This document shows, piece by piece, positions 8,404 through 48,898 of a stretch of 49,092 nucleotides of DNA (positions are counted from its first letter, which is position 1; the number at the start of each line of letters is the position of its first letter). The stretch is taken from assembly GCF_000818175.1 (NCBI RefSeq), contig NZ_JTIY01000001.1, positions 4,693,259 through 4,742,350 of the forward strand, given 5' to 3'. Made by a program: the position numbers and the translations under genes. Source of the stretch: Streptomyces sp. AcH 505. Its GTDB lineage: Bacteria > Actinomycetota > Actinomycetes > Streptomycetales > Streptomycetaceae. The notes below the pieces were generated by a model. The model was not told where the DNA came from and ran no database searches. It saw nothing but the letters and a program-made list of their open reading frames with translations.

Positions 8404-8573
8404 GACGCGGATTCCTTTCGAGCGTCCGGCCGGAATGTGGACGTGGACGTCACGCCGCCGACGGTTCGAAAGCGCCGGAGATCGACGGAGAGGCCGGCGG
8501 CGGAAGGCGACCGGATGGGTTATGTCCTGCTCTGTCCTGCGAGTCACGCTACCCGAGATGGCGTGGTTCAGCG

Positions 8574-8610
8574 CGTCGTCCCGACGGGGCTCCGCCCGGC
8601 CGGGACGACG
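8574..8610 (-). terminator. hairpin terminator of the mycothiol-formaldehyde unit
   Basis: CGTCGTCCCG at 8574-8583 pairs perfectly with CGGGACGACG at 8601-8610 around a 17-nt GC-rich loop. It lies 15 bp after the metallo-hydrolase stop. Confidence 0.5.
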
Positions 8611-8625
8611 TGCCGAACCGCCCGC

Positions 8626-10340: not shown

Positions 10341-10410
10341 CCCAGGACCTGCCTTTCCTCACGCCTACGCACGCACTTCGTCCGCACCCACTATCCCGTG
10401 CCGCGGTGGT

Positions 10411-11112: not shown

Positions 11113-11252
11113 GGGGCAAGCCTACGGGGCGACCGGCGGTGGAGAAAGTACGACGTTTTCATCACAGCCTCTTGAATACGTCATACCTAATGAGGTTCAG
11201 TGACCCGACACACCGATCGTGACCGACTGAGGTCGAGACAGCGAGGCACGCA

Positions 11253-11762: not shown

Positions 11763-11842
11763 ACGGACCCCCCGCCGCACTGCCCCACCCCGTCGGCAGT
11801 GCCCCCACCGCCCCGACCCCCACAGCCTAAGGAAGTACCCCC

Positions 11843-13240
11843 GTGAGCCATCTCAGCGTGGAGATGCTGGCAGCGGATGCCCCGGAGCCGATCTCGTCGG
11901 CGGGCAACGCACAGCTCGGCATCGCCGTCCTCGTCGGCATCGCCGTCATCGTCGTCCTCATCACCGTCTTCAAACTGCACGCCTTCCTGTCCCTGACCAT
12001 CGGTTCGCTGGCGCTCGGCGCCGTGGCCGGTGCGCCGCTGGACAAGGTCATCACCAGCTTCACCACAGGACTCGGCTCCACGGTCGCGAGCGTGGGTGTG
12101 CTGATCGCGCTCGGCGCGATACTCGGCAGGCTCCTCGCCGACTCGGGAGGGGCCGACCAGATCGTCGACACGATCCTGGCGAAGGCCAGCGCCCGGTCCA
12201 TGCCGTGGGCGATGGTGCTGATCGCCTCGATCGTCGGGCTGCCGCTGTTCTTCGAGATCGGCATCGTGCTGCTGATACCCGTGGTGCTGCTGGTCGCCAA
12301 GCGCGGCAACTACTCGCTCATGCGCATCGGCATCCCGGCCCTCGCCGGTCTCTCCGTGATGCACGGCCTGATCCCGCCGCACCCCGGTCCGCTCGCCGCG
12401 ATCGACGCCCTGCACGCCAACCTCGGTGTGACGCTGGCGCTCGGTGTGCTGGTCGCCATCCCGACCGTGATCATCGCCGGGCCGCTGTTCTCGAAGTACG
12501 CGGCGCGCTGGGTCGACGTCGAGGCGCCCGAAGGCATGGTGCCGCAGCGCGCCTCCGAGGACCTGGAGCACCGGCCGAGCTTCGGGGCGACGGTCTGCAC
12601 CATCCTGCTGCCCGTCGTGCTGATGCTCGGCAAGGCGCTCGTGGACGTGGTGATCGACAACCCCGACAACACGGGCCAGCGCGTCGCCGACGTCGTCGGA
12701 TCCCCGCTGATCGCGCTGCTCATCGCCGTACTCGTCGCCCTGTTCACGATGGGCAGGGCCGCCGGATTCACCAAGGACCGGCTCGCCACGACCGTGGACA
12801 AGTCACTCGCGCCGATCGCCGGTGTGATGCTGATCGTCGCCGCGGGCGGCGGCTTCAAGCAGACGCTGGTCGACGCGGGCGTGGGCCAGATGATCCTGGA
12901 CATCTCCAAGGACTGGTCGATACCCGCCCTGCTGCTGGCCTGGCTGATCGCCGTGGCGATCCGGATCGCCACCGGGTCCGCGACCGTCGCCACCATCTCG
13001 GCCGCGGGACTTGTGGGCCCGCTCGCCGCCGACATGTCGACCACGCATGTGGCCCTGCTGGTGCTGGCGGTGGGCTGCGGCTCGCTCTTCTTCAGCCATG
13101 TCAACGACGCCGGATTCTGGCTGGTGAAGGAGTACTTCGGGATGAGCGTCGGGCAGACGGTCAAGACCTGGTCGCTGATGGAGACGATCATCTCCGTGGT
13201 CGGCCTCGGCTTCGTCATGCTGCTGTCGCTGATCCTGTAG
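11843..13240 (+). CDS. gntP: gluconate:H+ symporter, GntP family
   Basis: A 465-residue polytopic membrane protein with about 12 hydrophobic segments. Family signatures include GLPLFFEIGIVLLIPVVLLVA, the GLSVMHGLIPPHPGPLAAI loop and the C-terminal CGSLFFSHVNDAGFWLVKEYFGMS. It imports gluconate with protons. With gntK it forms the uptake and phosphorylation unit under the divergent GntR regulator. The ATG at 11843 is GTG-preceded by AAGGAAGTACC, a good ribosome site. Confidence 0.95.
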   Translation: MSHLSVEMLAADAPEPISSAGNAQLGIAVLVGIAVIVVLITVFKLHAFLSLTIGSLALGAVAGAPLDKVITSFTTGLGSTVASVGVLIALGAILGRLLADSGGADQIVDTILAKASARSMPWAMVLIASIVGLPLFFEIGIVLLIPVVLLVAKRGNYSLMRIGIPALAGLSVMHGLIPPHPGPLAAIDALHANLGVTLALGVLVAIPTVIIAGPLFSKYAARWVDVEAPEGMVPQRASEDLEHRPSFGATVCTILLPVVLMLGKALVDVVIDNPDNTGQRVADVVGSPLIALLIAVLVALFTMGRAAGFTKDRLATTVDKSLAPIAGVMLIVAAGGGFKQTLVDAGVGQMILDISKDWSIPALLLAWLIAVAIRIATGSATVATISAAGLVGPLAADMSTTHVALLVLAVGCGSLFFSHVNDAGFWLVKEYFGMSVGQTVKTWSLMETIISVVGLGFVMLLSLIL

Positions 13241-33200: not shown

Positions 33201-33250
33201 CGCGTCAGGGCTTGTCAGGGCTTGTCGGTGGTTGTCGGTGCTTGTCAGTG
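33201..33250. repeat. 10-bp tandem repeat across the stop of the fusion gene
   Basis: Five consecutive 10-bp units of the form CTTGTCRGKG (cgcgtcaggg, cttgtcaggg, cttgtcggtg, gttgtcggtg, cttgtcagtg) occupy 33201-33250 and include the stop codon of the 999-residue gene at 33245. They sit in the 102-bp gap before the acyl-CoA dehydrogenase start. Likely a slippage minisatellite. Confidence 0.65.
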
Positions 33251-36244: not shown

Positions 36245-36879
36245 GTGGGCGTGCTACTCCCTGGCCATGGGCGGGCACACCGCGTCACGGAGCGCAGGCG
36301 GCGGAGCCCCACGGCCGCCGGGCGCGGGGCGCCGGGGCAGCACGAACAGGGCCTCGGACGCCGGAGTGCCGTGGCTCGGTGTTGGAACCGTCCGCAAGAC
36401 GGCAGTGGTTACGTTATGAAACCGGGCGCGGTCAGACGTGTGACATCGCCGGTCGATCCGAGGAGTAGCCCATACGAGGGATGTCGGACCTGGCCGGTGC
36501 CTGCCGCTGGTTCGGGTGATGTGTGGGGAGCGCCGGGTGAGCGCTCGCGGGGGCTAATCGCCGTGCGCGGGTGGCGACATCCGGCGACGCGGGGAACAGA
36601 TCGGACGGCTGTCATGGCGCGGGGCCCGTGCGGTGGGGCCCACTGGTCGTGGCAGTTGCCGAGGTGCGCTCGTACGGTCCGGGCGGGACCGTACGGGGAA
36701 GAGCGTCCGGATGACGAGCCCGCGCGTGCCGGCGCCGGGGAGGCGGGGGCGGTGCAGAGGGTGCTCAGTCATACGAGCTTTATATCAATGCTTTGTACAT
36801 CTATCCATCCTGCCCCTGGTCCGGGCCGCGCGTAGGCTGCGGCCAGGGATTCCGTCGCTGGGTGAAGGGACGAGTAACC
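36245..36879. other. 635-bp divergent regulatory region between CHC cassette and mycofactocin-type SDR
   Basis: No convincing gene is seen in either strand. It must hold the promoter of the long minus-strand operon and that of the SDR at 36880. The segment 36765-36805 is markedly AT-rich (ATACGAGCTTTATATCAATG and following), unlike its surroundings, and is the likely promoter or operator zone of the SDR gene. A second AT-rich patch at 36408-36422 could serve the operon at 36244. Sites within are not resolved by eye. Confidence 0.5.
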
Positions 36880-37695
36880 ATGGCTGGACGACTGACCGGG
36901 AAGGTCGCATTCATCACCGGCGCCGCACGGGGGCAGGGCCGGGCGCACGCGGTGCGGCTGGCGAGCGAGGGGGCCGACATCGTCGCGGTCGACCTGGCGG
37001 GGCCGCTGCCGCACGTGCCGTACGATTCGCCGACTCCGGCCGACCTCGAAGAGACCGTACGGCTGGTCGAGGCGCAGGACCGGCGGATCGTCGCCGAGCG
37101 CTGCGACGTACGGGACCTCGAAGCGATGCGCGCCGCCGTCGACAGGGCCGTCGCCGAACTCGGCCGGCTGGACGTCGTGGTGGCCAACGCCGGCATCTGT
37201 ATCCCGGCGGCCTGGGACCGGACGACGCCCGCGGTGTTCCAGGACACGATGGACATCAATGTCGTCGGCGTCTGGAACACCGTCATGGTCGGAGCCCCGC
37301 ACCTGATCGCGGCAGGCGGCGGCTCGATCATCCTGACCAGCTCCTACGCGGGCAAGAAGATGCAGCCGTTCATGGTCCACTACACGGCCAGCAAACACGC
37401 CGTGACGGGCATGACCCGCGCCTTCGCCGCGGAACTCGGCCCGCACCGGATCCGGGTCAACAGCGTCCACCCCGGAGCGGTCAACACCCCGATGGGCTCG
37501 GGCCGGATGGTCGAGGAACTCGACGCGGCGTCGCAGACGAACCCGCCGCTCGCCGCGATGGGCACCCCGTTCCTGCCGCAGTGGTCGGCGGAGCCGGAGG
37601 AGATCGCTGCGACGGTGGCGTTCCTCGCCTCCGACGACGCGGGCTACATCACGGCCGAGCACATCAGCATCGACGGCGGCGCCCAGTACTACTAG
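36880..37695 (+). CDS. mycofactocin-type SDR oxidoreductase (copy 1)
   Basis: A 271-residue SDR with the pattern of mycofactocin-coupled enzymes: KVAFITGAARGQGRAHAVRLASEGADIVAVDL, then a long insertion, QDRRIVAERCDVRDLEAM, VVANAGI, SIILTSSYAG, catalytic YTASKHAV and the C-terminal YITAEHISIDGGAQYY. Such enzymes keep their nicotinamide bound and pass electrons to mycofactocin. Start at ATG 36880 after GAAGGGA. It converges with mftG, 12 bp between stops. Its substrate is unknown; the adjacent CHC cassette is divergent. Confidence 0.87.
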   Translation: MAGRLTGKVAFITGAARGQGRAHAVRLASEGADIVAVDLAGPLPHVPYDSPTPADLEETVRLVEAQDRRIVAERCDVRDLEAMRAAVDRAVAELGRLDVVVANAGICIPAAWDRTTPAVFQDTMDINVVGVWNTVMVGAPHLIAAGGGSIILTSSYAGKKMQPFMVHYTASKHAVTGMTRAFAAELGPHRIRVNSVHPGAVNTPMGSGRMVEELDAASQTNPPLAAMGTPFLPQWSAEPEEIAATVAFLASDDAGYITAEHISIDGGAQYY

Positions 37696-37707: not shown

Positions 37708-39270
37708 CTAAGGGCTGTCCGGACGGCGCATCGCGGCGGCCACGACCTCGCCCACCAGCACCGCCGTCGCCGCGGGGCCGCGCAGCGGGGCCGTCGGCAG
37801 GATCGATGTGTCCGCGACGCGCAGTCCGCTGACCCCGTACACCCTGCCGTACTGGTCGACGACCGCGCCCGGATCGTCCGGCGGCCCCATCGGCGCGCTC
37901 GCGCAGGCGTGCACCGACGTGCCGAGCCGGCCGGCGATCCACCGGTCGAGCGCGCCGTCGTCGGCGAGGATCCGCGGATCCGGTCCGGCCCGCCCCGCGG
38001 CGACGGCGCCGAACGCGCGCGACGCGATCACCGCAGCCGTCACCCGTACCGCCTCGCGCATCCTGCGCCTGCTGTCGGCCGTGGACAGATAGCCGTAGTC
38101 GATCCGCGGCGGCACCCCGGGGTCGGCGGACACCAGCCGCAGCTTCCCCACGGACTCCGGTGCCTGGACGGAGACGAGGAACGGCAGGGGTGCGCCCGGG
38201 ACCGCCGTCGTCCCGCCGACCAGGCCCGCCATCGGCACCAGCGACTGCAGGATCTCCAGATCGCCGGAGTGCCCGCCGTCCGACGACGACAGGTGGAGGC
38301 TCCCGCCCAGCCAGTTGCCTTCGGGCGCCGGCAGCTCGGACGAGGGAGCCCACTCGACGACGACCTGCGGATGGTCGCCGAAGCCCGCGCCCACGCCCGG
38401 GGCGTGCCGTACGACCGGCACCCCGAGCCGTTCGAGGTCGGCGCGCGGGCCGATGCCCGAGAGCAGCAGCAACTGCGGCGAGGCGAAGGCCCCGGCGCAG
38501 AGCACGACCTCACCGGCCCGTACGGTCTCCCGCCGGCCGGCGCGCTCCAGCTCGACGCCGACGGCGCGGGCGCCCGCCGTCCCGCCGCCCTCGACCAGGA
38601 CCCGCAGGACCGTGCTGTCGCCGCTGACAGCGAGGTTGGGCCGGGCAAACGCGTCGAGCAGATAGCTGAGACCGGTGTTCACCCGGACACCCGCGTCCGT
38701 GTTCGTCGGCACGGGACCGAAGCCGGGCGCGCCCTGGTCGTTCTTGTCGGGCTCGGCGGGAAAGCCCAGCTCGGCGGCGGCGGCGCCGAACGCGGCCGCC
38801 GCGGGGTGGCCGAGCGAGGTGCGCCGGACCCTGACCGGACCCGAACCGCCGTGCACCGCCGACGAGCCGTGGTCCAGGTCGGTCTCCAGGCCGCGCAGGA
38901 ACGGCAGGACCCGGTCGAAGGACCAGGCGTCGTTGCCGGCCGCCGCCCACCGGTCGAAGTCGGCGCGCCTGGCGCGGACGAAGTACCCGCCGTTGATCGT
39001 GGTCGAGCCGCCGAGGAACCGGCCCCTGACGACGGTGTACGGGCGCTCCGGCGTGAGGTGCGCCGGATACTCCGTACCGGCGGGGTGGCCCGGCCAGGCG
39101 CCCGGGACCAGCCGCCCGTCCAGCAGTCCGGGCCCGAAGCCGGCCGCGCGCAGCGGTACGGGTCCGGCCTCCACCAGCAGCACCCGGCGGTCGCCGTCCT
39201 CGCTGAGCCGCGCGGCGAGCGGCGCTCCGCTCGCCCCCGCGCCGACGACCACCACGTCGTGCCGGATCAC
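37708..39270 (-). CDS. mftG: GMC-family oxidoreductase, mycofactocin-associated
   Basis: A 520-residue GMC flavoprotein. The FAD motif is VVVGAGASGAPLAARLSEDG, then RGRFLGGSTTINGGYFVRA (GMC signature 1), LCAGAFASPQLLLLSGIG (GMC signature 2) and the C-terminal YGVSGLRVADTSILPTAPLRGPAATAVLVGE. It begins at GTG 39270, overlapping the mftR stop by 4 bp. MftG is the dehydrogenase thought to reoxidise reduced mycofactocin and link it to respiration. Its C-terminal HACASAPMG segment is the usual GMC active-site His region. It lies divergently from mftABC, head to head with the promoter at 39900-40000. Confidence 0.86.
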   Translation of the reverse strand: MIRHDVVVVGAGASGAPLAARLSEDGDRRVLLVEAGPVPLRAAGFGPGLLDGRLVPGAWPGHPAGTEYPAHLTPERPYTVVRGRFLGGSTTINGGYFVRARRADFDRWAAAGNDAWSFDRVLPFLRGLETDLDHGSSAVHGGSGPVRVRRTSLGHPAAAAFGAAAAELGFPAEPDKNDQGAPGFGPVPTNTDAGVRVNTGLSYLLDAFARPNLAVSGDSTVLRVLVEGGGTAGARAVGVELERAGRRETVRAGEVVLCAGAFASPQLLLLSGIGPRADLERLGVPVVRHAPGVGAGFGDHPQVVVEWAPSSELPAPEGNWLGGSLHLSSSDGGHSGDLEILQSLVPMAGLVGGTTAVPGAPLPFLVSVQAPESVGKLRLVSADPGVPPRIDYGYLSTADSRRRMREAVRVTAAVIASRAFGAVAAGRAGPDPRILADDGALDRWIAGRLGTSVHACASAPMGPPDDPGAVVDQYGRVYGVSGLRVADTSILPTAPLRGPAATAVLVGEVVAAAMRRPDSP

Positions 39271-39887
39271 CTGGGCGGGTCCTCGGCGAAGGTCTCGCTC
39301 AGCACGTCGAACGCCGACCACAGCAGCTCCCGCAGATCGCTGCCGTCCCGTCTGAGCCACTGCTCGTACGCGGACAGCGAGGCGGCCAGGAACGTCCAGG
39401 CGATCACCTGCGGCCGCAGATCGTCCTCGGACACACCGAGTCTGCGGGCGGCGTACTCGGCGACCACCTGCCGCCAGGACGCGTAGCGCAGCGTCGAGTG
39501 CGCGACCAGCGACGGCACGTTCAGCAGGAGGTCCATCCGGCGTTTGTGGTACTCGATCTCCTCGGCGGGGAACTGGTTGAACTCGACGATGGCGGAGCGC
39601 AGCGCGTCCAGCAGGGGGGTCTCCTGCGGGGTGGCGCGCAGATACTCGCGCATCTGCTCCACGAGGTCGTCGAAGTCGCCCCACGGGACGTCGTTCTTCG
39701 ACCGGAAGTAGCGGAAGAAGGTGCGCCGCCCGATGCCGGACGCGTTGGCTATGTCGTCCACCGTCGTCTCGGCGAAGCCGCGTTCCACGAAGAGCTGGAG
39801 CGCGACATGGCTCAGCTCGCCCACCGACGTCGATGGCTGTCTGCCGGCGCGCGCCGCAGGCCGTGGGACGCCGGCTGAGGAAGTCAC
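39267..39887 (-). CDS. mftR: mycofactocin-system TetR regulator
   Basis: A 206-residue TetR-type regulator. The helix-turn-helix lies in ALQLFVERGFAETTVDDIANASGIGRRTFFRYFRSKNDVPWGDF, a pattern specific to MftR (the RTFFRYFRSKNDVPWGDFD part). GTG 39885-39887 is chosen because GGGAAAG precedes it at the right distance. The ATG at 39923 falls inside the promoter palindrome and lacks a ribosome site. It is the first gene of the mftR-mftG pair and divergent from mftA. It probably represses both and may respond to acyl-CoA, as shown for mycobacterial MftR. Confidence 0.86.
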   Translation of the reverse strand: MTSSAGVPRPAARAGRQPSTSVGELSHVALQLFVERGFAETTVDDIANASGIGRRTFFRYFRSKNDVPWGDFDDLVEQMREYLRATPQETPLLDALRSAIVEFNQFPAEEIEYHKRRMDLLLNVPSLVAHSTLRYASWRQVVAEYAARRLGVSEDDLRPQVIAWTFLAASLSAYEQWLRRDGSDLRELLWSAFDVLSETFAEDPPR

Positions 39888-39918
39888 ATCTTTCCCTTTC
39901 TTCCATTTGACACCGGGT

Positions 39919-39932
39919 GCCATTACAGTGGC
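39919..39932. promoter_or_regulatory. palindrome in the mftR/mftA divergent promoter
   Basis: GCCATTACAGTGGC has 4-bp arms GCCA/TGGC around TTACAG. TTGACA at 39907-39912 is a good -35 box beside it for the mftA direction. Position between the two divergent transcripts makes it a candidate MftR operator. Confidence 0.4.
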
Positions 39933-39999
39933 GATTATCAGGCAGACAGGGACCGGCGGCCAGCCGGTACCGCGTCATCAAGCCGCAGAGGAGCATCGT

Positions 40000-40152
40000 A
40001 TGAACGACCTCCAGATTGTCCCTTCCGGCGAGCAGTCCAGCGCTTCCGACGCCGCCGCGACAGCCGACACCGCACCGCGTCCCGATTCCGTCATCGAGGC
40101 CGACGACCTCGTCGAGGAGATCTCGATCGACGGCATGTGCGGCGTCTACTAG
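40000..40152 (+). CDS. mftA: mycofactocin precursor peptide
   Basis: A 50-residue peptide that ends in IDGMCGVY, the invariant C-terminus of MftA whose last Val-Tyr is turned into the redox core. The leader is acidic and Ala/Ser rich, with EADDLVEEISIDG before the core. AGAGGAG precedes the ATG at 40000, a strong ribosome site, as expected for a peptide made in excess of its enzymes. MftB binds the leader and delivers it to MftC; both are encoded directly downstream. Function is secure. Confidence 0.96.
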   Translation: MNDLQIVPSGEQSSASDAAATADTAPRPDSVIEADDLVEEISIDGMCGVY

Positions 40153-40171
40153 CCGCCGCGCCGTGACCGGC

Positions 40172-40438
40172 ATGGACATCGATCGTCCCTGGGACCTGCA
40201 TCCGCAGGTCTCGGTACGGCCCGAACCCTTCGGTGCGCTGCTGTACCACTTCGGGACGCGCAAACTCTCGTTCCTCAAGGACCGCCGCCTGCTGACCGTC
40301 GTCCAGTCACTCGCGGACGCTCCCACCGCGCGGGCCGCGTGCACGGCCGCCGGTGTCGCCGAGCCCGAAGTGCCGCGCTACAGCCGGGCTCTCGCGACGC
40401 TCGCCCAGTCGTCGATGGTGGTGGAAAGGATCTCATGA
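40172..40438 (+). CDS. mftB: mycofactocin peptide chaperone
   Basis: An 88-residue PqqD-like RiPP recognition element. It contains WDLHPQVSVRPEPFGALLYHFGTRKLSFLKDRRLLTVVQSL, the conserved MftB core. It binds MftA and presents it to MftC. ATG 40172 is used; GTG 40163 is also possible. Its stop overlaps the mftC start (ATGA, 40435-40438). No enzymatic motif is expected. Confidence 0.93.
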   Translation: MDIDRPWDLHPQVSVRPEPFGALLYHFGTRKLSFLKDRRLLTVVQSLADAPTARAACTAAGVAEPEVPRYSRALATLAQSSMVVERIS

Positions 40439-41682
40439 CCGCGCTCCAGGACACTCCCACCCGCAGTGCGGGCAGCAAGCCGCTCGTCGACCTGTTCGAG
40501 TACGGGCTCGACGCGCCGATCTGTCTCACCTGGGAGCTCACGTACGCCTGCAACCTCTCCTGCACCCACTGCCTGTCCAGCTCGGGACGGCGCGACCCGC
40601 GCGAACTGAGCACGGCTGAGGCGAAGGCGGTGATCGACGAGCTCGAACGCATGCAGGTCTTCTACGTCAACATCGGCGGCGGCGAACCGACGGTACGCGC
40701 CGATTTCTGGGAGCTCGTGGACTATGCCACAGCCCATCACGTGGGCGTGAAATTCTCCACGAACGGCGTGAAGATCACCCCGGAGGTGGCCGAGCGGCTC
40801 GCCCGGAACTCCTACGTCGACGTGCAGATCTCCCTCGACGGCGCGACCGCCGAGGTCAACGACGCCGTACGCGGCCCCGGTTCGTACGACATGGCCCTGC
40901 AGGCCATGGCCAATCTCTCCGCCGCAGGGATGGAGAACTTCAAACTGTCCGTCGTCTGCACCCGGCACAACATCCCGCAGATGGACGAGTTCAAGGAGAT
41001 CGCCGACCGCTACGGGGCCCAGCTCAGGCTGACCCGGCTGCGCCCCTCGGGCCGCGGCGCCGACGTGTGGGACGAGCTGCACCCCACCCGCGACCAGCAA
41101 CGCGAACTGTACGACTGGCTCGTGGCGCACGGCGACAGCGTGCTGACCGGTGACTCGTTCTTCCACCTCTCCGCCTTCGGGGAGGCGCTGCCCGGGCTCA
41201 ACCTGTGCGGCGCCGGACGTGTCGTCTGCCTGATCGACCCGATCGGCGACGTCTACGCCTGCCCGTTCGCGATCCACGACGAATTCCTCGCCGGCAACAT
41301 CCGTACCCCGGGCGGCTTCACCGGCGTCTGGCGGCAGTCCGAGCTGTTCCAGCGGCTGCGCCAACCGCAGTCCGGGGGAGCCTGCGCCTCCTGCCAGTTC
41401 TTCGACACCTGCAAGGGCGGGTGCATGGCGGCGAAGTTCTTCACGGGCCTTCCGCTGGACGGCCCCGACCCCGAGTGCGTCCAGGGGTACGGCGAGCAGC
41501 TGCTCGCCGGCCGCACTTCACAGACTCCCGTCCCGAAATCCTCGGCGGATCACTCCCACCGCACCACCCGGGCCGCGCGCCCGGGTCCGGTGGCCCTGAC
41601 CCTCACCCGCCGCGCGGAGCTGGACGGGCCTCCGGTCAGCGACTGCGCCGAGAGCCCGCTCGCCGGGTTCCGGCCGGAGTAG
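40435..41682 (+). CDS. mftC: mycofactocin radical SAM maturase
   Basis: A 415-residue radical SAM enzyme. The [4Fe-4S]-SAM motif CNLSCTHC is at residues 39-46. NIGGGEPT follows, then the SPASM-type auxiliary cluster cysteines in LCGAGRVVCLIDPIGDVYACPF, CASCQFFDTCKGGC and DPEC near 270-350. MftC decarboxylates the C-terminal Tyr of MftA and links it to the penultimate Val, forming the core lactam. Translationally coupled to mftB. The C-terminus from about residue 360 is a poorly conserved basic extension. Confidence 0.95.
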   Translation: MTALQDTPTRSAGSKPLVDLFEYGLDAPICLTWELTYACNLSCTHCLSSSGRRDPRELSTAEAKAVIDELERMQVFYVNIGGGEPTVRADFWELVDYATAHHVGVKFSTNGVKITPEVAERLARNSYVDVQISLDGATAEVNDAVRGPGSYDMALQAMANLSAAGMENFKLSVVCTRHNIPQMDEFKEIADRYGAQLRLTRLRPSGRGADVWDELHPTRDQQRELYDWLVAHGDSVLTGDSFFHLSAFGEALPGLNLCGAGRVVCLIDPIGDVYACPFAIHDEFLAGNIRTPGGFTGVWRQSELFQRLRQPQSGGACASCQFFDTCKGGCMAAKFFTGLPLDGPDPECVQGYGEQLLAGRTSQTPVPKSSADHSHRTTRAARPGPVALTLTRRAELDGPPVSDCAESPLAGFRPE

Positions 41683-41780: not shown

Positions 41781-42614
41781 ATGGGGCGTGTAGAAGGCAA
41801 GGTCGCATTCATCACGGGGGCAGCACGAGGACAGGGCCGCAGCCACGCGGTCAGGCTGGCGCAAGAGGGCGCCGACATCATCGCGGTCGATATCTGCGAG
41901 GACATACCCGGCGTGGTCTATTCAGGGGCCACCGAGGACGATCTCGCCGAGACCGTGCGCCAGGTGGAAGCCCTGGACCGCAGGATCGTGGCGCGGAAGG
42001 CCGACGTACGGGACCTCGCACAGCTCAAGGAGGCCGTCGGCCAGGGGGTCGCCGAGCTGGGGAAGCTCGACATCGTCTCGGCGAACGCCGGCATCCTCAA
42101 CACCCCGGCCCCGGCCGAGGACCTGGCCGAGGACAGCTGGGCCACCATGATCGACATCAATCTGACCGGCGTGTGGAAGACCTGCGCCGCGGCGATCCCG
42201 CATCTCAAGGCCGGCGGCAGCGGCGGCTCGATCATCCTCACCAGCTCCGAGGCGGGCCTGATCGGCTATCAGAACGTCGCGCACTACGTCTCTGCCAAGC
42301 ACGGCGTGGTCGGACTCATGCGCACCCTCGCGCTGGAGCTCGCGCCGGACAGCATCCGGGTCAACAGCCTCCACCCCACGCAGGTGGACACGGACATGAT
42401 TCAGAACGAGTCGACGTACCGGATGTTCAGCCCGGACCTCGACCACCCGACCAGGGACGACTTCGCCGTGGCCTCACAGGCCGTCAACGCCCTGCCGATC
42501 CCGTGGGTCGAGTCGGTCGACATCTCCAACGCCCTGCTGTTCCTCGCCTCGGACGAGGCGCGCTACATCACCGGCGTTCCGCTGCCGGTCGACGCCGGCT
42601 GCTTCCTCAAGTGA
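41781..42614 (+). CDS. mycofactocin-type SDR oxidoreductase (copy 2)
   Basis: A 277-residue SDR with MGRVEGKVAFITGAARGQGRSHAVRLAQEGADIIAVDICEDIPG, ALDRRIVARKADVRDLAQ, IVSANAGIL, IILTSSEAGL and catalytic YVSAKHGV, ending in PVDAGCFLK. It begins at ATG 41781 after GAAAGG. It is a tandem paralogue of the next gene, with very similar first 15 residues and long identical blocks. Both are of the type that keep NAD(H) bound and need mycofactocin as external acceptor. The substrate is unknown; an alcohol is usual. Confidence 0.88.
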   Translation: MGRVEGKVAFITGAARGQGRSHAVRLAQEGADIIAVDICEDIPGVVYSGATEDDLAETVRQVEALDRRIVARKADVRDLAQLKEAVGQGVAELGKLDIVSANAGILNTPAPAEDLAEDSWATMIDINLTGVWKTCAAAIPHLKAGGSGGSIILTSSEAGLIGYQNVAHYVSAKHGVVGLMRTLALELAPDSIRVNSLHPTQVDTDMIQNESTYRMFSPDLDHPTRDDFAVASQAVNALPIPWVESVDISNALLFLASDEARYITGVPLPVDAGCFLK

Positions 42615-42663: not shown

Positions 42664-43500
42664 ATGGGGCGTGTAGAAGGCAAAGTAGCGTTCGTCACCG
42701 GCGCGGCACGCGGCCAGGGCCGCAGCCACGCGTTGCGCCTCGCCCAGGAGGGCGCGGACATCATCGCGATAGACATCGCATCCCAGATAGATTCCGTCCC
42801 GTACGCCATGGCGACACCGGACGACCTCGCCGAGACCGTACGCCAGGTGGAAGCCCTGGACCGCAGGATCGTCGCCACCCAGGCCGACGTACGCGACTTC
42901 GAAGCGGTGAAGCGGGCGGTCGACGACGGCGTCGCCCAGCTCGGCCGGCTCGACATCGTCTCGGCCAACGCCGGCATCTTCAGCTTCGGCACGATGGACG
43001 AACTCAGCGAGACCCAGTTCGCCGACATGATCGACGTCAATCTGACCGGTGTGTGGCGCACGGCCAAGGCGGCGATCCCGCATCTCAAGGCGGGCGGCAA
43101 CGGCGGCTCGATCATCCTGACCAGCTCGACGGCCGGGCTGATGGGCATGGAGAACATCGGCCACTACGTGGCGGCCAAGCACGGTGTCGTGGGGCTCATG
43201 CGGACCCTCGCGCTGGAGCTGGCGCCGGACAGCATCCGGGTCAACAGCGTGCACCCCACATCCGTCAACACCGACATGATCCAGAACTCGGCCGCCTACG
43301 AGCTGTTCTCGCCCGACCTCACCCCCGAGGAGCGGAACAGGGACGTCCTCGCACCGCGCTTCGCCGCGATGAACGCGCTGCCGATCCCGTGGGTCGAGCC
43401 GGTCGACATCTCCAACGCCGTGCTCTGGCTGGCCTCCGACGAGTCGCGTTACGTCACCGGCGTCACGCTGCCGGTGGACGCCGGACAGCTCACCAAGTAA
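42664..43500 (+). CDS. mycofactocin-type SDR oxidoreductase (copy 3)
   Basis: A 278-residue SDR, close paralogue of the preceding gene (shared MGRVEGKVAF, GAARGQGRSHA, RQVEALDRRIVA, HLKAG.GGSIILTSS, YVAAKHGVVGLMRTLALELAPDSIRVNS blocks). The active site is YVAAKHGV. It starts after AAGGAGA. The region between start and residue 60 differs most (IASQIDSVPYAMAT), where substrate or partner specificity may lie. Twin mycofactocin SDR genes inside an mft operon suggest two related alcohol substrates or subunits of one enzyme. Confidence 0.88.
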   Translation: MGRVEGKVAFVTGAARGQGRSHALRLAQEGADIIAIDIASQIDSVPYAMATPDDLAETVRQVEALDRRIVATQADVRDFEAVKRAVDDGVAQLGRLDIVSANAGIFSFGTMDELSETQFADMIDVNLTGVWRTAKAAIPHLKAGGNGGSIILTSSTAGLMGMENIGHYVAAKHGVVGLMRTLALELAPDSIRVNSVHPTSVNTDMIQNSAAYELFSPDLTPEERNRDVLAPRFAAMNALPIPWVEPVDISNAVLWLASDESRYVTGVTLPVDAGQLTK

Positions 43501-43511
43501 GCGACGCCACC

Positions 43512-44474
43512 ATGACAAGGACGAGGACGATTACCACGCAGCGGACAGCCCGGGAGACGTCGACCGCGACGGCCGGTGTGCTGGCGACCCGGGAGCGGAT
43601 CGCCTCGCGCCTTGTCGGCCGTGAGCGCGAGCTGGAACTCGCGCTCGCGGCGGTCGCCGCCGGGCGTGATCTCGTGCTGGAAGGCCCCCCGGGCACCAGC
43701 AAGACCACCATGCTCAGGGCGATCACCGACGAATGGGGCATCCCCCTGGTGTTCGTGGAGGGCAACGCCGATCTGACCCCGGCCAAACTGATCGGCCATC
43801 ACAACCCCTCGCGGGTGCTGCGGGAGGACTACAGCGCCGACAACTTCGTCGCCGGACCGCTGGTCGAGGCCATGAGCACCGGCGGCTTCCTCTACCTGGA
43901 GGAGTTCAACCGCGCCCCCGAGGACACCCTCAACGCGCTGCTCACCGCGATGGCGGACCGCACCATCCAGGTGCCGCGCGTCGGCCGGATCACCGCCCAG
44001 CCGTCGTTCCGGGTCGTCGCCTCGATGAACCCGTACGACAACGTCGGCACGACCCGGCTCTCCATGAGCGTCAGCGACCGGCTCAACCGGATCGTCGTGG
44101 ACTACCAGGACACCCGGGCCGAGGAAGGCATCCTCGCGCTGCGCACCGAACTCACCGGCGCACTCGCCGAGCGGATCATCGCCGACGCCGTCGCCGTCAC
44201 CCGGGCCACCCGCGTCCACCAGGACGTACGGCAGGGCAGCAGTGTGCGCGGAGCGATCGACTGCGCCCTCGTCGACCATGAACTCACCCTGCTGCGACAG
44301 CTCGCGGGACCGGCCGACGAGCGCTACCCCGAGACGTTCTACGACGCCATGACCGTCGCCCTGTCCGGCCGTATCCGCATCGACGAGGCGGCCGGGACGA
44401 CCCCGGAACGCGTCCTGCGCGAGATCTGGGAGAACCGCTTCGTGCTGGACCCGGCACGCGCCGAACCCGGCTGA
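43512..44474 (+). CDS. MoxR-type AAA+ ATPase within the mycofactocin operon
   Basis: A 320-residue AAA+ protein. Walker A is EGPPGTSKTTML near residue 58, Walker B is FLYLEEFNRAPED, sensor 1 is VVASMNPYD, and the arginine-finger region is SVSDRLNRIV. It ends in a helical lid. MoxR ATPases act with von Willebrand A-domain partners to insert metals or activate enzymes; CoxD/CoxE and NorQ/NorD are examples. The partner is the next gene, 6 bp away. The pair is not a core mft gene, so it may mature a mycofactocin-dependent enzyme or MftD/MftG (inference). Start at ATG 43512 has a weak ribosome site. Confidence 0.86.
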   Translation: MTRTRTITTQRTARETSTATAGVLATRERIASRLVGRERELELALAAVAAGRDLVLEGPPGTSKTTMLRAITDEWGIPLVFVEGNADLTPAKLIGHHNPSRVLREDYSADNFVAGPLVEAMSTGGFLYLEEFNRAPEDTLNALLTAMADRTIQVPRVGRITAQPSFRVVASMNPYDNVGTTRLSMSVSDRLNRIVVDYQDTRAEEGILALRTELTGALAERIIADAVAVTRATRVHQDVRQGSSVRGAIDCALVDHELTLLRQLAGPADERYPETFYDAMTVALSGRIRIDEAAGTTPERVLREIWENRFVLDPARAEPG

Positions 44475-44480
44475 AGAGCT

Positions 44481-45449
44481 GTGGCCGCCGACTCGCCGCT
44501 GCGCCGCGAGACGGCTCGCGCCACAGCCACGAGCAGGCCGCTGCGCCGTACCCCGAAGAAGCTGGACGAGGATCCGATGGTGTTCGAGACCGTGCCAGGC
44601 ACCGGCGGGGCCGTGCTGCGCGCCCAGCCGCGCGGCGGCACGGCGCGCGAGCGGCCCGCAGGCCCGGGAGCGGGCTTCACCGACGAGGAAGGACACCTGC
44701 TCACCGCCACCGACGAGGAAGCGGTCGACCCCGAGGTGCGGGCACGGGCCAGGGCCATCGCGGCCCGGCTCTCGCTGCCCAAGCCGAAGCGGGCCAGCAC
44801 CGCACGGCGCGCCACCGGCCGGCTCGCCAGCCTGCCCTACCGGGACAGGAGCGACGAGATCGACCTCGACCGCACCCTGGAGAGCCTGGCCGAGCACCCG
44901 GTGCCCGAGGACGAGGACATCTACGTCTTCGAGCGGGTCCACGCCCGCAGGTCCGTGGTCCTCGCCGTCGACCTGTCCGGCTCGATGAAGGGCGAGCGGG
45001 TCCGCACGGCGGCGGCGACCGTCGGCGCGCTCGCCGCCGAACTGGCGCAGGACGCCCTCGCCGTCATCGCGTTCTGGTCCGACGCGGCGATCCTCCTCGG
45101 CCTCGGCGAGCCGGTCCGGCCCGCCGAACTCCTCGACGCGATGCTGCGGCTGCCCGCCAGGGGACTCACCAACGTGGGCTTCCCGCTCCAGCTCGCCGCC
45201 CGGCAGCTCGCCGGAGTGCCCGAACCCGACGCGCGGGTCCTGCTGCTGTCCGACTGCGTGCACAACGCCGGCCCCGACCCACGGCCCGCCGCCGCCCGGC
45301 TGCCGAGGCTCGACGTGCTGCTCGACACGAGCGGCGAGAAGGACGTCGAACTCGGCACGGAGATGGCCCGGCTGGGCCGCGGCACCTTCCACGCCGTCCG
45401 CACCCACCACGATGTCGGGGCCGCGCTCGGCGACATCTTTCGCGCCTGA
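44481..45449 (+). CDS. von Willebrand factor A-domain protein (CoxE/NorD-like partner)
   Basis: A 322-residue protein. The first about 150 residues are basic and disordered-looking, rich in Arg and Pro. The C-terminal VWA domain has a complete metal-ion site: VVLAVDLSGSMKGERVR (DxSxS), the Thr in GLTNVGFPLQL and VLLLSDCVHN. It starts at GTG 44481, 6 bp after the MoxR-type ATPase stop. Together they form the chaperone pair described for CO dehydrogenase and NO reductase. No CODH or NOR subunit lies in the window. Confidence 0.85.
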   Translation: MAADSPLRRETARATATSRPLRRTPKKLDEDPMVFETVPGTGGAVLRAQPRGGTARERPAGPGAGFTDEEGHLLTATDEEAVDPEVRARARAIAARLSLPKPKRASTARRATGRLASLPYRDRSDEIDLDRTLESLAEHPVPEDEDIYVFERVHARRSVVLAVDLSGSMKGERVRTAAATVGALAAELAQDALAVIAFWSDAAILLGLGEPVRPAELLDAMLRLPARGLTNVGFPLQLAARQLAGVPEPDARVLLLSDCVHNAGPDPRPAAARLPRLDVLLDTSGEKDVELGTEMARLGRGTFHAVRTHHDVGAALGDIFRA

Positions 45450-45467: not shown

Positions 45468-46712
45468 ATGCCTAGGAATCCCTGGTTCGAGACCGTTGCC
45501 GAGGCGCAGCGCCGGGCCAAGAAGCAACTGCCCAGCTCGGTCTACGGGGCGCTGGTCGCCGGTTCCGAGCGCGGCCTGACCATCGACGACAACATCGGGG
45601 CCTTCGCCGAACTCGGCTTCGCCCCCCGGGTCGTCGGGCACCACGCCGAGCGGGATCTGTCGACCACCGTGCTCGGCGTCGAGACGGCGTTCCCCGTTCT
45701 CATCTCACCGACGGGCGTCCAGGCGGTGCATCCGGACGGCGAGGTCGCGGTCGCCCGCGCCGCCGCCAACCGGGGCATCATCATGGGCCTCAGCTCGTTC
45801 GCGAGCAAACCGGTCGAGGAGGTCGCGGCGGCCAACCCCAACACCTTCTTCCAGATGTACTGGACGGGTACGCGCGAGGCGATGACGCAGCGCATGGAGC
45901 GCGCCAGGGCGGCCGGGGCCAAGGCCCTCATCTCCACCCTCGACTGGTCCTTCTCCAACGGCCGCGACTGGGGCAGCCCGGCCATCCCCGACAAGGTCGA
46001 CCTCAAAACCATGCTGCGGTTCGCGCCCGACGTACTGCCGCACCCGCGCTGGCTCCTGCAGTTCGCGAAGACCCGCAGCATCCCCGATCTGACCACCCCC
46101 AACCTGCGGCCCCCGGGCGGTGTCGCGCCGACGTTCTTCGGCGCGTACGGCGAGTGGATGCAGACCCCGCCGCCCACCTGGGACGACGTGAAGTGGCTCC
46201 GCGAGGAGTGGGGCGGGCCCTTCCTGCTCAAGGGCGTCACACGGGTCGACGACGCGCGGCGCGCCGTCGACGCGGGAGTCTCGGCGATCTCCGTCTCCAA
46301 CCACGGCGGCAACAACCTCGACTCGACCCCCGGCACGATCCGCATGCTGCCCTCGATCGCCGAAGCCGTCGGCGACGAGATCGAGGTGCTGCTCGACGGC
46401 GGCATCCGGCGCGGCGGTGACGTGGCCAAGGCACTCGCGCTCGGCGCCGACGCCGTACTGATCGGCCGCGCCTATCTGTGGGGGCTCGCCGCCAACGGAC
46501 AGGGCGGGGTCGAGAACGTCCTGGACATCCTGCGCGGCGGCCTCGACTCCGCCGTACTGGGCCTCGGCCACTCCTCGGTCCACGAGCTGTCCCCCGACGA
46601 CCTGGTGATCCCGCCGGGCTTCACCAGGACCCTGGGCGGCGGTCTCGTGGCCGGGTCGGACAAGCCGAAGGCGGGCCCGACCACACCGCGCGACCAGGAC
46701 CCGATCGGCTAG
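45468..46712 (+). CDS. mftD: mycofactocin FMN-dependent dehydrogenase
   Basis: A 414-residue FMN enzyme of the lactate-oxidase/glycolate-oxidase family. It shows PVLISPTGVQAVHPDGEVAVARAAANRGIIMGLSSFAS, FLLKGVTRVDDARRAVDAGVSAISVSNHGGNNLDSTPGTIRMLP with the catalytic His, and VLLDGGIRRGGDVAKALALGADAVLIGRAYLWGLA. MftD oxidises the cleaved Val-Tyr-derived dipeptide to the alpha-keto premycofactocin. AGGAAAGATCT precedes its ATG. Its position after the VWA gene and before mftE agrees with other mft operons. Confidence 0.93.
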   Translation: MPRNPWFETVAEAQRRAKKQLPSSVYGALVAGSERGLTIDDNIGAFAELGFAPRVVGHHAERDLSTTVLGVETAFPVLISPTGVQAVHPDGEVAVARAAANRGIIMGLSSFASKPVEEVAAANPNTFFQMYWTGTREAMTQRMERARAAGAKALISTLDWSFSNGRDWGSPAIPDKVDLKTMLRFAPDVLPHPRWLLQFAKTRSIPDLTTPNLRPPGGVAPTFFGAYGEWMQTPPPTWDDVKWLREEWGGPFLLKGVTRVDDARRAVDAGVSAISVSNHGGNNLDSTPGTIRMLPSIAEAVGDEIEVLLDGGIRRGGDVAKALALGADAVLIGRAYLWGLAANGQGGVENVLDILRGGLDSAVLGLGHSSVHELSPDDLVIPPGFTRTLGGGLVAGSDKPKAGPTTPRDQDPIG

Positions 46713-46721
46713 CGGGCGCCC

Positions 46722-47504
46722 GTGTCGCAGGAACACACCGGCTCGTCGGAGCTGGCGCGGCTGGTGTGGCCGCGCGTTCCCGACGCCGTGACCGTCCTCG
46801 TACCGATCGGTTCGACGGAACAGCACGGCCCGCACCTGCCGTTCACCACGGACAGCGTCATCGCGCGGGCCGTCGCGGCGCGGGCGGCGGACCACCCGTC
46901 GCTCGCCCGGCCGCACCCGCCGCTGGTCGCGCCGACCATCACGTACGGATCCAGCGGCGAGCACGCGGGCTTCCCCGGCACGGTCTCCATAGGACGCGAG
47001 GCCCTGCTGGCGGTCGTCGTCGAGACGGTGCGCTCGCTGTCCCTGTGGGCAGGGCGGATCGTGTTCGTGAACGGCCACGGCGGCAATGTGCCGACCCTCG
47101 ACCAGGCCGTCGGCCGGCTGCGCGCCGAGGGGCACGACGTGGCGTGGACGCTGTGCGCGCCGCCGGGCTCCGACGCGCACGCCGGACGTGCGGAGACCTC
47201 CGTCATGCTCCATCTCGTCCCCGACGAGGTACGGGTCGAGGCCGCGACCGCGGGCGACACCCGGCCGCTCGCCGAGATCATGCCCGAGCTGATCGCCCAC
47301 GGCGTGCGGGCCGTCTCCCCGAACGGGGTGCTCGGCGACCCGACGGGTGCGTCGGCCGAGGAAGGCGCGGCGCTGCTGGACGCCATGGTGGCGAGCGCCG
47401 TACGGCGGATCGCCCGCTTCAGGGTGGACGCGCGCGGCCGGCTCACGGAGGAGACACCAACGGCAGCGGGGACACCAACGGCAGAGGGGACACCGGAAGA
47501 ATGA
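46722..47504 (+). CDS. mftE: mycofactocin creatininase-family peptidase
   Basis: A 260-residue creatininase-type metalloprotein. Metal ligands are in GSTEQHGPHLPFTTD, VNGHGGN and AHAGRAETS. MftE cleaves the modified peptide to release the Val-Tyr-derived core. It starts at GTG 46722, 10 bp after mftD. The last about 22 residues (ETPTAAGTPTAEGTPEE) are a low-complexity repeat, with the DNA repeated as well. The stop overlaps the mftF start (ATGA at 47501-47504). Confidence 0.92.
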   Translation: MSQEHTGSSELARLVWPRVPDAVTVLVPIGSTEQHGPHLPFTTDSVIARAVAARAADHPSLARPHPPLVAPTITYGSSGEHAGFPGTVSIGREALLAVVVETVRSLSLWAGRIVFVNGHGGNVPTLDQAVGRLRAEGHDVAWTLCAPPGSDAHAGRAETSVMLHLVPDEVRVEAATAGDTRPLAEIMPELIAHGVRAVSPNGVLGDPTGASAEEGAALLDAMVASAVRRIARFRVDARGRLTEETPTAAGTPTAEGTPEE

Positions 47505-48898
47505 CGCTCCCGCACGGCTTCGTCGTCCAACTCGACCGCAGGACCCGGGTCGTCGACGGCGGCAGGTCCCTGCTCGGCGGCTTCCCGACCCGGCTGGTGC
47601 GTCTGACCGAGCGCGCGAGGCCGCTTGTCACGGGCCGCCGTGTCGTGGTCAAGGACGCGGCGAGCGCGCTGCTCGCCGACCGGCTGCTGGAGACGGGCCT
47701 GGCCCACCCCGTCACCGCCGAACTCCCGCCCCACCCGGACCCGCGCTGGACCGTCGTCGTACCGGTACGCGACCGGCCGCGCGAACTCGACCGGCTGCTC
47801 ACCAGCCTCGGCACCGCGCACCCCGTGATCGTCGTGGACGACGCGTCGTACGAGCCGCAGGCCGTCGGCGCCGTGGCCGCCCGGCACGGCGCGCTGCTGG
47901 TGCCCCTCGACGTCAACGTGGGTCCGGCCGCCGCCCGGAACGCCGGGCTGCGGCTGGTCCGCACCCCCTACGTGGCCTTCGTGGACTCCGACGTCGTTCT
48001 CCCCGCCACGACGATCCCCACGCTGCTCGGGCACTTCGCCGACCCGAAGGTCGCCATGGCCGTCCCGCGGATCGCCGGGCTGCGCACCGAAGCTGCCCCC
48101 GGCTGGCTCACCCGCTACGAAGAGGCCCGCTCGTCCCTCGACCTCGGCGCGGAACCGGCGCAGGTCCGGCCGGGATCACCCGTCTCCTGGGCCTCCACGA
48201 CCTGTGTGCTGGCCCGGGTCGACGCGCTGGCCGAGGGGATCGGCGGGTTCGATGACGGGATGCGGGTCGGGGAGGACGTCGACCTGTGCTGGCGGCTCGT
48301 CGCGCGCGGACTGCGGGTGCGCTACGACCCCTCGGTCACCGCCGAGCACGAACACCGGGCCCGGCTGGGGGAGTGGTTCACCCGCAAGGCGTTCTACGGC
48401 ACCGGTGCCCACCCGCTCGCCGTACGGCACCCCGAGGCGATTGCCCCGGTCGTCCTCGCCCCCTGGAGCGCGGCGCTGATCGTCGCGCTGCTCGCCCAGC
48501 GCCGCTGGTCGGTCCCGGCGGTGGGCGCCCTCTGCGCCGTCACCACCGTACGGATCGCCCGCAAGCTGGACCGCGCCGACCACCCGCTGAAACTGGCCGC
48601 CCGGCTCACCGCGAACGGCACCGTCGGGGCGCTCTCCCAGGCGGGCAGCCTGCTGACCCGGCACTGGTGGCCGGCGGCGGCCGCCGGCTGCCTGGTCTCC
48701 CGCCGGGTGCGCAGAGCGGTCGCCGTGGCGGCCGTCACCGACATCGCCCTGGAGTACCGCAAGAACCACGGGCACCTCGACCCCGTACGCTTCGCCGTCG
48801 CCCGGCGCCTGGACGACCTCGCCTACGGCGCCGGCGTCTGGTACTCGGCGGCCAAGGGCCACTCGCTCGCGGCCCTGCGCCCGCGCGTCCGCGGCTGA
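47501..48898 (+). CDS. mftF: mycofactocin glycosyltransferase
   Basis: A 465-residue family-2 glycosyltransferase. The catalytic region is WTVVVPVRDRPRELDRLLTSL, VIVVDDASYEP, NVGPAAARNAGLRLVRTPYVAFVDSDVVLP (DxD) and FDDGMRVGEDVDLCWRL. A C-terminal part has hydrophobic stretches (PWSAALIVALLAQRRWSVPAVGALCAV) and may be membrane-associated. It adds beta-1,4-glucose chains to premycofactocin. It is coupled to mftE by a 4-bp overlap and ends before a perfect 15-bp hairpin, so it closes the mft operon. Confidence 0.93.
   Translation: MTLPHGFVVQLDRRTRVVDGGRSLLGGFPTRLVRLTERARPLVTGRRVVVKDAASALLADRLLETGLAHPVTAELPPHPDPRWTVVVPVRDRPRELDRLLTSLGTAHPVIVVDDASYEPQAVGAVAARHGALLVPLDVNVGPAAARNAGLRLVRTPYVAFVDSDVVLPATTIPTLLGHFADPKVAMAVPRIAGLRTEAAPGWLTRYEEARSSLDLGAEPAQVRPGSPVSWASTTCVLARVDALAEGIGGFDDGMRVGEDVDLCWRLVARGLRVRYDPSVTAEHEHRARLGEWFTRKAFYGTGAHPLAVRHPEAIAPVVLAPWSAALIVALLAQRRWSVPAVGALCAVTTVRIARKLDRADHPLKLAARLTANGTVGALSQAGSLLTRHWWPAAAAGCLVSRRVRRAVAVAAVTDIALEYRKNHGHLDPVRFAVARRLDDLAYGAGVWYSAAKGHSLAALRPRVRG

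Follow-up and report, generated by a model that had tools for sequence, protein, structure and literature searches.

Several described machines pair a MoxR-type AAA+ ATPase with a partner carrying a von Willebrand factor A (VWA) domain, in which the metal ion-dependent adhesion site (MIDAS) binds an acidic residue of the client. For the Rubisco activase CbbQ/CbbO, passages of PMC4660213 report mutants which support that the MIDAS of CbbO binds a single surface carboxylate of Rubisco; the motor would then remodel the active site. NorQ/NorD inserts the FeB of nitric oxide (NO) reductase; CoxD/CoxE and the pair MSMEG_0748/0751, actinobacterial according to part of PMC12657314, act in the maturation of carbon monoxide (CO) dehydrogenase; and RavA/ViaA is described as a chaperone linked to a redox enzyme, its client being the fumarate reductase electron transport complex. 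Here we describe a MoxR/VWA pair from a 49,092-nucleotide stretch of the Streptomyces sp. AcH 505 genome (contig NZ_JTIY01000001.1, positions 4,693,259 to 4,742,350; hereafter the window), where it lies within a cluster of mycofactocin (mft) genes. We propose, with a probability of roughly 0.6, that the pair forms an AAA+ machine whose specific task is to remodel mycofactocin-linked dehydrogenases at their NAD site.

The ATPase gene, moxR (43512–44474, plus strand; ATG start, TGA stop), encodes 320 residues and is followed on the same strand by vwa (44481–45449; GTG start, TGA stop), which encodes 322. The MoxR protein matches AAA_5 at 82 bits (cut-off 22) and AAA_3 at 55.2 bits (cut-off 27). 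In the family alignment the Walker A motif, EGPPGT.K, and a Walker B-like motif, YxEE.NR (E130, E131, N133 and R134), are invariant; the usual MoxR Walker B is DE, where this family has YxEE. Sensor and arginine motifs were assigned by eye. The domain and the two Walker motifs place the protein among the MoxR-type AAA+ ATPases, and its AlphaFold2 model (predicted local distance difference test, pLDDT, 91.2) has the predicted fold of the NorQ/CbbQ group, with NorQ the best match in the PDB and CbbQ (6l1q) ranking third. A profile search of PDB sequences puts NorQ, the uncharacterised 2r44, CbbQ and CobS at the top, the giant midasins being set aside.

The VWA protein matches VWA_2 at 40.6 bits (cut-off 27) and only just passes VWA_CoxE (PF05762), at 26.6 bits (cut-off 26.4). 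Its MIDAS (DxSxS-T-D) is complete, D164, S166, S168, T230 and D258 being invariant in two alignments. The model (pLDDT 73.3) is of low confidence over the first ∼80 residues; in a Foldseek search with it NorD ranks second and fourth, at modest TM-scores (0.43–0.50) and among many other VWA domains, and in a sequence profile search against PDB sequences NorD is fourth (E 2e-6), with CobT lower down. A predicted strand-helix-strand element (residues 114–153) precedes the MIDAS strand, at the same place where, in passages of PMC13036017 and PMC9976466, NorD has the finger that it inserts into the pore of NorQ. We infer from the model that the stretch ∼104–155 before the MIDAS strand may be comparable with this finger.

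As in CbbQ/CbbO, a MoxR AAA+ motor and a VWA adaptor are encoded behind genes for cytosolic enzymes, and MIDAS binding of one client carboxylate, supported by mutants for CbbO, is what we propose here. The clients in the window, however, would be nicotinoprotein dehydrogenases, and the VWA protein is shorter (322 residues compared with ∼770 in CbbO). With NorQ/NorD the pair shares the top MoxR-model match, a high VWA-model match, an intact MIDAS and, putatively, the finger-like element; it differs in that its clients would be soluble NAD enzymes, with the short-chain dehydrogenases/reductases (SDRs) among them metal-free, and in that a NorD-like N-terminal domain is not visible in the VWA model, whose first 80 residues are of low confidence. 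CoxD/CoxE and MSMEG_0748/0751 likewise adjoin an oxidoreductase, but no CO dehydrogenase is seen in the portion of the window that was scanned, the client class is another and PF05762 is barely reached. The likeness to RavA/ViaA, also a MoxR/VWA chaperone linked to a redox enzyme, ends with the identity of that enzyme.

Established names do not fit the pair. Neither protein reaches an NCBIfam equivalog cut-off, the best score being for GvpN (79.5 bits against 266.8), and identity as NorQD, CoxDE or GvpN was therefore rejected. MadB was rejected likewise (NF047784, 42.8 bits against a cut-off of 475), and no literature link of MadB, MadC and VWA together was found. A role in defence was rejected as well, IetA alone being matched among the anti-phage MoxR/VWA systems of PADLOC, at 20.1 bits over 57 residues and with no VWA match; and although PF20030, of the MoxR-vWA-beta-propeller ternary system, scores 29.1 bits (cut-off 27), there is no beta-propeller gene among the scanned open reading frames (ORFs) of the window. 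In targeted searches of the open full-text literature, with subscription papers and supplements outside their scope, no description ties mycofactocin or a nicotinoprotein to a MoxR/VWA pair, the one paper with both mycofactocin and MoxR being unrelated, and word searches find neither MoxR nor VWA in the main text of Haft 2011 or in that of the 2025 paper on MftG. The machine type itself is known; with this client class it is not described in the open literature searched.

The evidence for the clients comes from the genes that neighbour the pair. Two sets of loci were compared: set 1, comprising 25 fetched regions around MoxR matches plus the window (26 in all, annotated with local profiles), and set 2, comprising 80 loci kept, from named genomes, out of at least 195 MoxR relatives found in a pattern scan of genome contigs. 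Three contig-edge loci of set 2 were left out of the upstream counts, leaving 77 with enough upstream DNA, and the sets overlap in that L072 and L152 are nearly identical (L, G and f codes denote the loci, genomes and taxonomic families of our samples). A linked dehydrogenase lies directly upstream of MoxR, that is on the same strand and no more than 500 bp away as measured between the ends of the profile matches, at 85 of the 103 loci: 24/26 in set 1 (19 Zn-dependent alcohol dehydrogenases, Zn-ADHs, and 5 SDRs; exceptions L086 and L087) and 61/77 in set 2 (35 SDRs and 26 Zn-ADHs), giving 45 Zn-ADHs and 40 SDRs overall. Because the arrangement recurs so widely, the position of the pair behind a dehydrogenase is far from chance. 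In an NCBIfam scan all 45 Zn-ADHs match TIGR03989 (E ≤ 1e-125), and the SDRs divide into 36 of TIGR03971 and 4 of TIGR04504 (all E ≤ 1e-80), these calls being based on E-values rather than on curated cut-offs applied member by member. Both TIGR03989 and TIGR03971 are tabulated as mycofactocin-linked in the part of Haft 2011 (PMC3023750) drawn on here. Mycofactocin-linked dehydrogenases are, we consider, very probably the clients of the pair.

The VWA gene follows MoxR at 77/80 loci, and at the other three the contig stops within 0.5 kb past MoxR; a single open frame encodes both proteins at 8 of the 26 set-1 regions (L065, L066, L067, L068, L070 and L079, plus the second MoxR of L063 and of L064), so that the genes are adjacent or fused, as in MoxR/VWA machines generally. 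In L063 (G237; 9628–12544) and L064 (G053; 7913–10800) tandem MoxR genes, the second in frame with VWA, lie behind coupled SDRs and could perhaps form a mixed ring. A flavoenzyme family recurs in pair regions L072, L073, L075, L079 and L084, the L072 member being the mycofactocin-system old yellow enzyme (OYE) TIGR03996.

The link to mft genes themselves is looser. At 24 of the 50 loci with full 8-kb flanks in named genomes, and at 40/80 overall, there is no match to mftC, D, E or F, and of the 77 loci with a VWA gene only 11 have mftD as the first profiled gene behind it. Since nearly half of the full-flank loci have no mft biosynthesis gene, the pair appears tied to dehydrogenases and not to MftD/MftG, and the suggestion of the initial annotation that it assembles an MftD/MftG complex is not supported. 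That annotation had also foreseen that pairs found as often away from mft genes, with no conserved link, would undo its proposal; pairs away from mft genes do occur, but a conserved link persists, to dehydrogenases. On one Rhodococcus plasmid the order SDR-MoxR-vWA is found among coupled SDR genes, on a second the pair is flanked on both sides by opposite-strand coupled SDRs, and the gene table for the two stretches, though incomplete, lists no mft gene. A plasmid search with an ADH-type MoxR, aimed at other phyla, matched only the same two plasmids; among the kept loci only L162 (Labilithrix) bears a name placed in another phylum, L169 being named just 'bacterium'.

Among the 85 labelled rows of a 108-row MoxR tree, partners switch between SDR and Zn-ADH only twice. 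The pair-linked ADHs, in contrast, do not form a single clade but are scattered over the TIGR03989 tree (19 changes compared with a shuffled mean of 33.6, six duplicate rows included). We conclude that the pair keeps its partner type yet has joined many different ADHs. Viewed from the enzyme side, with a limit of 250 bp, at least 57 TIGR03989 genes exceed the cut-off in a phylum sample of 296 actinobacterial genomes; of the 30 that occur in genomes with this MoxR, 19 lie directly upstream of it.

In the same 296 genomes, with the MoxR family called at E ≤ 1e-40 and mftC by TIGR03962, the family occurs in 24, mftC in 36 and MftD in 29. The co-occurrence of the pair with mycofactocin that the initial annotation proposed to survey is strong, mftC being present in 21/24 MoxR-family genomes compared with 15/272 others (Fisher p 1.3e-19, ignoring phylogeny). 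Of the three MoxR genomes lacking mftC, G173 (89% complete) has a TIGR03989 gene immediately 5′ of MoxR, and G032 and G043 have the weakest-scoring MoxRs, with no linked dehydrogenase directly upstream. MftD, mftC and this MoxR are absent from all eight other congeners of the window strain in the sample, and the nearest relatives of the window MoxR are from one Microbacterium and two Streptomyces; the sporadic cluster and these hosts together suggest transfer. MoxR matches with one in-frame stop occur in G305, G324, G353 and G367 and at L037 in G053 (four TGA, one TAG), and may reflect broken copies or matches that overrun the end of the gene.

In the window, the gene directly upstream of moxR (42664–43500, plus strand) encodes an SDR that is the likeliest client, and two further SDRs of the cluster, at 41781–42614 (plus; start read from the sequence) and 36793–37695 (plus; true start possibly inside the ORF), are likely clients. 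All three match TIGR03971 over its full length, at 426.6 (the upstream gene), 407.6 and 344.5 bits against a curated cut-off of 300, and contain the NAD-site insertion segment. Among the best-scoring candidates searched from this 9.0-Mb genome they are the only TIGR03971 matches, and no TIGR03989 match was found at E ≤ 1e-110. As all three lie within the mft cluster, the clients in this genome are most likely these SDRs; the earlier idea of a mycofactocin-dependent dehydrogenase matured by the pair stands as regards the dehydrogenase, which is repeated at the 85 loci, but not as regards its being encoded elsewhere, own-cluster enzymes being likelier.

A residue of the SDRs follows the presence of the pair closely. 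In a first comparison, 38 SDRs linked to the pair were set against 40 TIGR03971 SDRs whose genomes lack it. Residues 65–66 are Leu-Asp in 35/38 of the former, the other three being TIGR04504 proteins, and residue 66 is Gly or Asn in 39/40 of the latter. Directly upstream of the pair, Asp66 is found in 35/35 scored TIGR03971 SDRs (the truncated L118 being unscored). In the window SDR next to moxR it is encoded by GAC at 42859–42861 (plus strand; motif ALDRR) and is a candidate for the carboxylate on which the VWA MIDAS docks; the other two cluster SDRs have Asp at the same place. Residue 66 we take to be in the turn that follows the helix of the insertion segment, judging from the alignment, shortly before a DV pair that is presumably the adenine-contacting pair of SDRs; in the solved TIGR03971 relatives the equivalent residue is Gly in 3T7C and Asp in 5EJ2.

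The association was examined again in a fresh set of 80 SDRs from 28 previously unused genomes, hand-picked from the listed matches before the residue was seen and including 10 of 13 further pair genomes (G361 and G366 were unused, and G367 has no SDR match). Asp66 occurs in 39/40 SDRs of pair genomes compared with 8/40 of pair-less ones (Fisher p 9.7e-14, ignoring phylogeny), and position 66 is the best discriminator among 277 alignment positions. Before an SDR tree was built, 15 of 155 rows were removed (4 TIGR04504 and 11 judged by eye to be non-TIGR03971); none of the 15 has Asp66 and 11 lie in pair loci. Of the rows kept, 90 from SDR-type pair loci have Asp66 and 3 do not, all three from Zn-ADH-type pair loci lack it, and those from regions or genomes with no pair in view comprise 1 with and 43 without. 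In family f80 Asp66 is present in 21/22 sampled SDRs, only one of which is directly beside the pair, another being ∼1 kb off on the other strand and 20/22 far away or on other contigs; the pair-less family f85 has it in 5/24, and the plasmid SDRs in 5/5. Relatedness was taken into account with a FastTree tree of 225 rows, built with residues 60–70 excluded and contrasts drawn on supported branches: of 11 independent contrasts a mean of 7.7 run in the expected direction, 0 in the opposite one and 3.3 in neither (median p 0.008, range 0.008–0.07).

For the Zn-ADHs there is a possible parallel. Glu238 of TIGR03989 occurs in 69/69 ADHs taken from pair loci or from genomes with the pair, compared with 9/27 others, as a marker picked after the fact in a single data set with duplicate rows dropped; tree contrasts number only five pairs, too few to use, and Asp171 and Glu242 are weaker markers. 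From class I ADH alignment and knowledge of the fold, Glu238 is presumably on the helix that follows the NAD-ribose aspartate, and the helix of Glu238/Glu242 looks like that of Asp66 in the SDRs. The parallel between Glu238 and Asp66 is suggestive only.

Structural work on TIGR03971 enzymes indicates why such a position could matter. Relevant passages of PMC5264612 describe an insertion that covers the adenosine half of the NAD, NAD that does not exchange in tests by nuclear magnetic resonance, and mycofactocin shown or proposed as the acceptor for relatives with non-exchangeable NAD; the authors of the structures state there that NAD release would require a large conformational change. Since their NAD is captive, these dehydrogenases probably need a machine of their own for loading, opening or repair. 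The simplest reading that joins the lid-like insertion, the CbbO precedent and Asp66 is that the pair takes hold of its client next to the lid over the NAD and opens this lid. We infer from these comparisons that MoxR–VWA would contact the SDR, dock at Asp66 and open the NAD site.

In the proposed mechanism the MoxR ring would be the motor, and the VWA protein, predicted to plug the ring, would bind through its MIDAS a nicotinoprotein client having one buried NAD that is regenerated by mycofactocin. The MIDAS metal would take the Asp66 carboxylate, located at the turn just past the SDR segment that carries the NAD-covering insertion; ATP hydrolysis would pull this insertion element open; and NAD could then be loaded into a new enzyme, or dead or damaged NAD(H) removed. 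Such logic would be near that of CbbQO on Rubisco and NorQD on NO reductase. Action at the NAD site has in our estimate a little under an even chance of being right. Somewhat more tentatively, the pair may be an AAA+ 'nicotinoprotein activase', the first of its kind, whose MIDAS would grip the NAD-fold turn (Asp66, and perhaps Glu238/Glu242 in the ADHs) and open the lid for loading, swapping or repair of NAD. From sequence alone, NAD loading, removal of dead NAD and a mere aid to folding cannot be told apart.

A number of observations weigh against this reading. Fifteen of the 36 mftC genomes, among them all 8 of family f3, have no member of this MoxR family, and as 7 of those 8 encode at least one enzyme of TIGR03989 or TIGR03971, and in many cases more, linked dehydrogenases can evidently function with no pair. 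At 16/77 set-2 loci no linked dehydrogenase is directly upstream, although at 8 of these one occurs in another part of the flank; a third partner family was not found in the scanned ORFs of 14 of the 16 loci (all but L146 and L170), which are mixed (enoyl-CoA hydratase, OYE, RibBA, MFS, EAL/GGDEF, FMN dehydrogenase and others) or lack Pfam matches. As for Asp66, it is missing from the 4 TIGR04504 partners, from 7 other set-aside SDR rows of pair loci and from the 3 exceptional SDRs within SDR-type pair loci, and G237 and G053 have Asp in their pair-adjacent SDRs but Gly in the SDR of their own mft cluster. Conversely, it is present in the 8/40 fresh-set and 1/40 first-set SDRs from pair-less genomes and in 5EJ2. 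The fresh set is much inter-related, 18 f86 SDRs resembling the L114 SDRs of the first set, and when the three rows from Zn-type loci are omitted 10 contrasts remain, with means of 6.7 in the expected direction, 0 in the opposite one and 3.3 in neither (median p 0.016, range 0.016–0.063). SDRs with Asp66 in genomes with no detected pair are L311, L312, L316, L317, L328, L329, L332 and L341; in these genomes the pair may have been lost or have diverged, or the Asp may serve a different purpose.

The same dehydrogenase genes upstream would equally fit a general chaperone for the assembly or stability of these enzymes, in tetramer formation or docking to MftG for example, with no action on NAD, and the association of RavA-ViaA with fumarate reductase, in the accounts drawn on here, implies that some MoxR/VWA pairs do not handle a cofactor site. 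This alternative is unlikely, though it deserves real weight; weak evidence against it is that the client residue best tracking the pair adjoins the NAD-covering insertion. We know of no oligomer or membrane contact at the residue-66 place of SDRs. Insertion of a metal or cofactor in the manner of NorQD or CoxDE, into the Zn site of the ADHs or into another metalloenzyme, would suit the closest solved relatives, which include NorQ/NorD, CbbQ and CobS/CobT, as well as the 45 Zn-ADHs among the 85 directly upstream partners. The remaining 40 are SDRs, however, which as a family need no metal, so that inserting a metal is unlikely to be what the pair does for both groups; with the window genome also devoid of a TIGR03989 match at the threshold given above, we regard it as improbable.

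A role in mycofactocin biosynthesis, or in an MftD/MftG complex, could account for mftD lying directly 3′ of the pair in the window, and next at 11/77 loci, and for the co-occurrence with mftC, but the loci with no biosynthesis gene (24/50 and 40/80), the 15 mftC genomes with no pair and the Rhodococcus plasmid pairs, with SDRs and no mft gene in their incomplete table, make it hardly credible. It might instead be supposed that the pair does not act on the dehydrogenases at all, the two being a co-transferred module and Asp66 a relic of shared descent. The mft cluster is indeed sporadic in the window genus, related loci are spread over several actinobacterial families, and Asp66 is clustered on the SDR tree built without those columns (18 changes compared with a shuffled mean of 40.7). 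The partners, however, belong to two unrelated superfamilies, Asp and non-Asp still interchange those 18 times, the contrasts run in one direction only, and in f80 nearly all SDRs have Asp66 although most are remote from the pair; such passive co-transfer is thus quite improbable. We therefore prefer a remodelling machine acting on the NAD site of the linked dehydrogenases.

The window contains a full mft cluster around the pair, with mftG and mftR on the minus strand and mftA, mftB, mftC, two SDRs, moxR, vwa, mftD, mftE and mftF in that order on the plus strand. The precursor peptide gene mftA (40000–40152) ends in IDGMCGVY; an ORF containing mftB (40016–40438) matches TIGR03967 from residue 56; and the radical SAM maturase gene mftC (40435–41682; TIGR03962) has a start read from the sequence. 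Downstream of the pair are mftD, for pre-mycofactocin synthase (45468–46712; TIGR03966, 699.3 bits against a cut-off of 470.85), mftE (46722–47504; TIGR03964) and the glycosyltransferase gene mftF (47501–48898; TIGR03965; start read from the sequence). On the minus strand are the TetR regulator gene mftR (39267–39923; TIGR03968) and an ORF (37708–40344) in which mftG, a GMC dehydrogenase, occupies residues 363–871 (TIGR03970, 418.8 bits against a cut-off of 387.45). All of these NCBIfam matches pass their curated cut-offs. The initial annotation had placed the pair at 43512–45449, between the SDR genes and mftD on the same strand and with gaps of 6–19 bp; coordinates and profiles bear this out, the gaps measuring 11 bp (SDR-MoxR), 6 bp (MoxR-VWA) and 18 bp (VWA-mftD), and from these short gaps the pair is presumably co-transcribed with its neighbours. 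It had likewise noted the lack of a metalloenzyme of the kind usually served by MoxR/VWA pairs, and we find none among the ORFs scanned at 25.9–49.0 kb, those left of 25.9 kb being outside the scan; nor are NO reductase or CO dehydrogenase genes seen beside the pair among these ORFs, and their absence at other loci is judged only from selected named neighbours. A separate region of the window, at 33245–36244 on the minus strand, has one 999-residue ORF with an EPSP-synthase domain (residues 9–423) and an AMP-binding CoA-ligase domain (467–978); its neighbours include acyl-CoA dehydrogenase, SDR, OYE-like, ketoacyl synthase and further ligase genes, and the region looks like an unusual biosynthetic cluster.

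To our knowledge, how enzymes with captive NAD acquire it, or recover when it is spoiled, is an open question. The Asp66 signature makes the idea set out here testable by single substitutions. If it is true, the pair would be a missing part of the mycofactocin system and its dehydrogenases a new client class for MoxR/VWA machines; engineers would learn that in a foreign host such dehydrogenases may be fully active only alongside helper genes, and enzymes with an otherwise non-exchangeable cofactor could be made and kept active.

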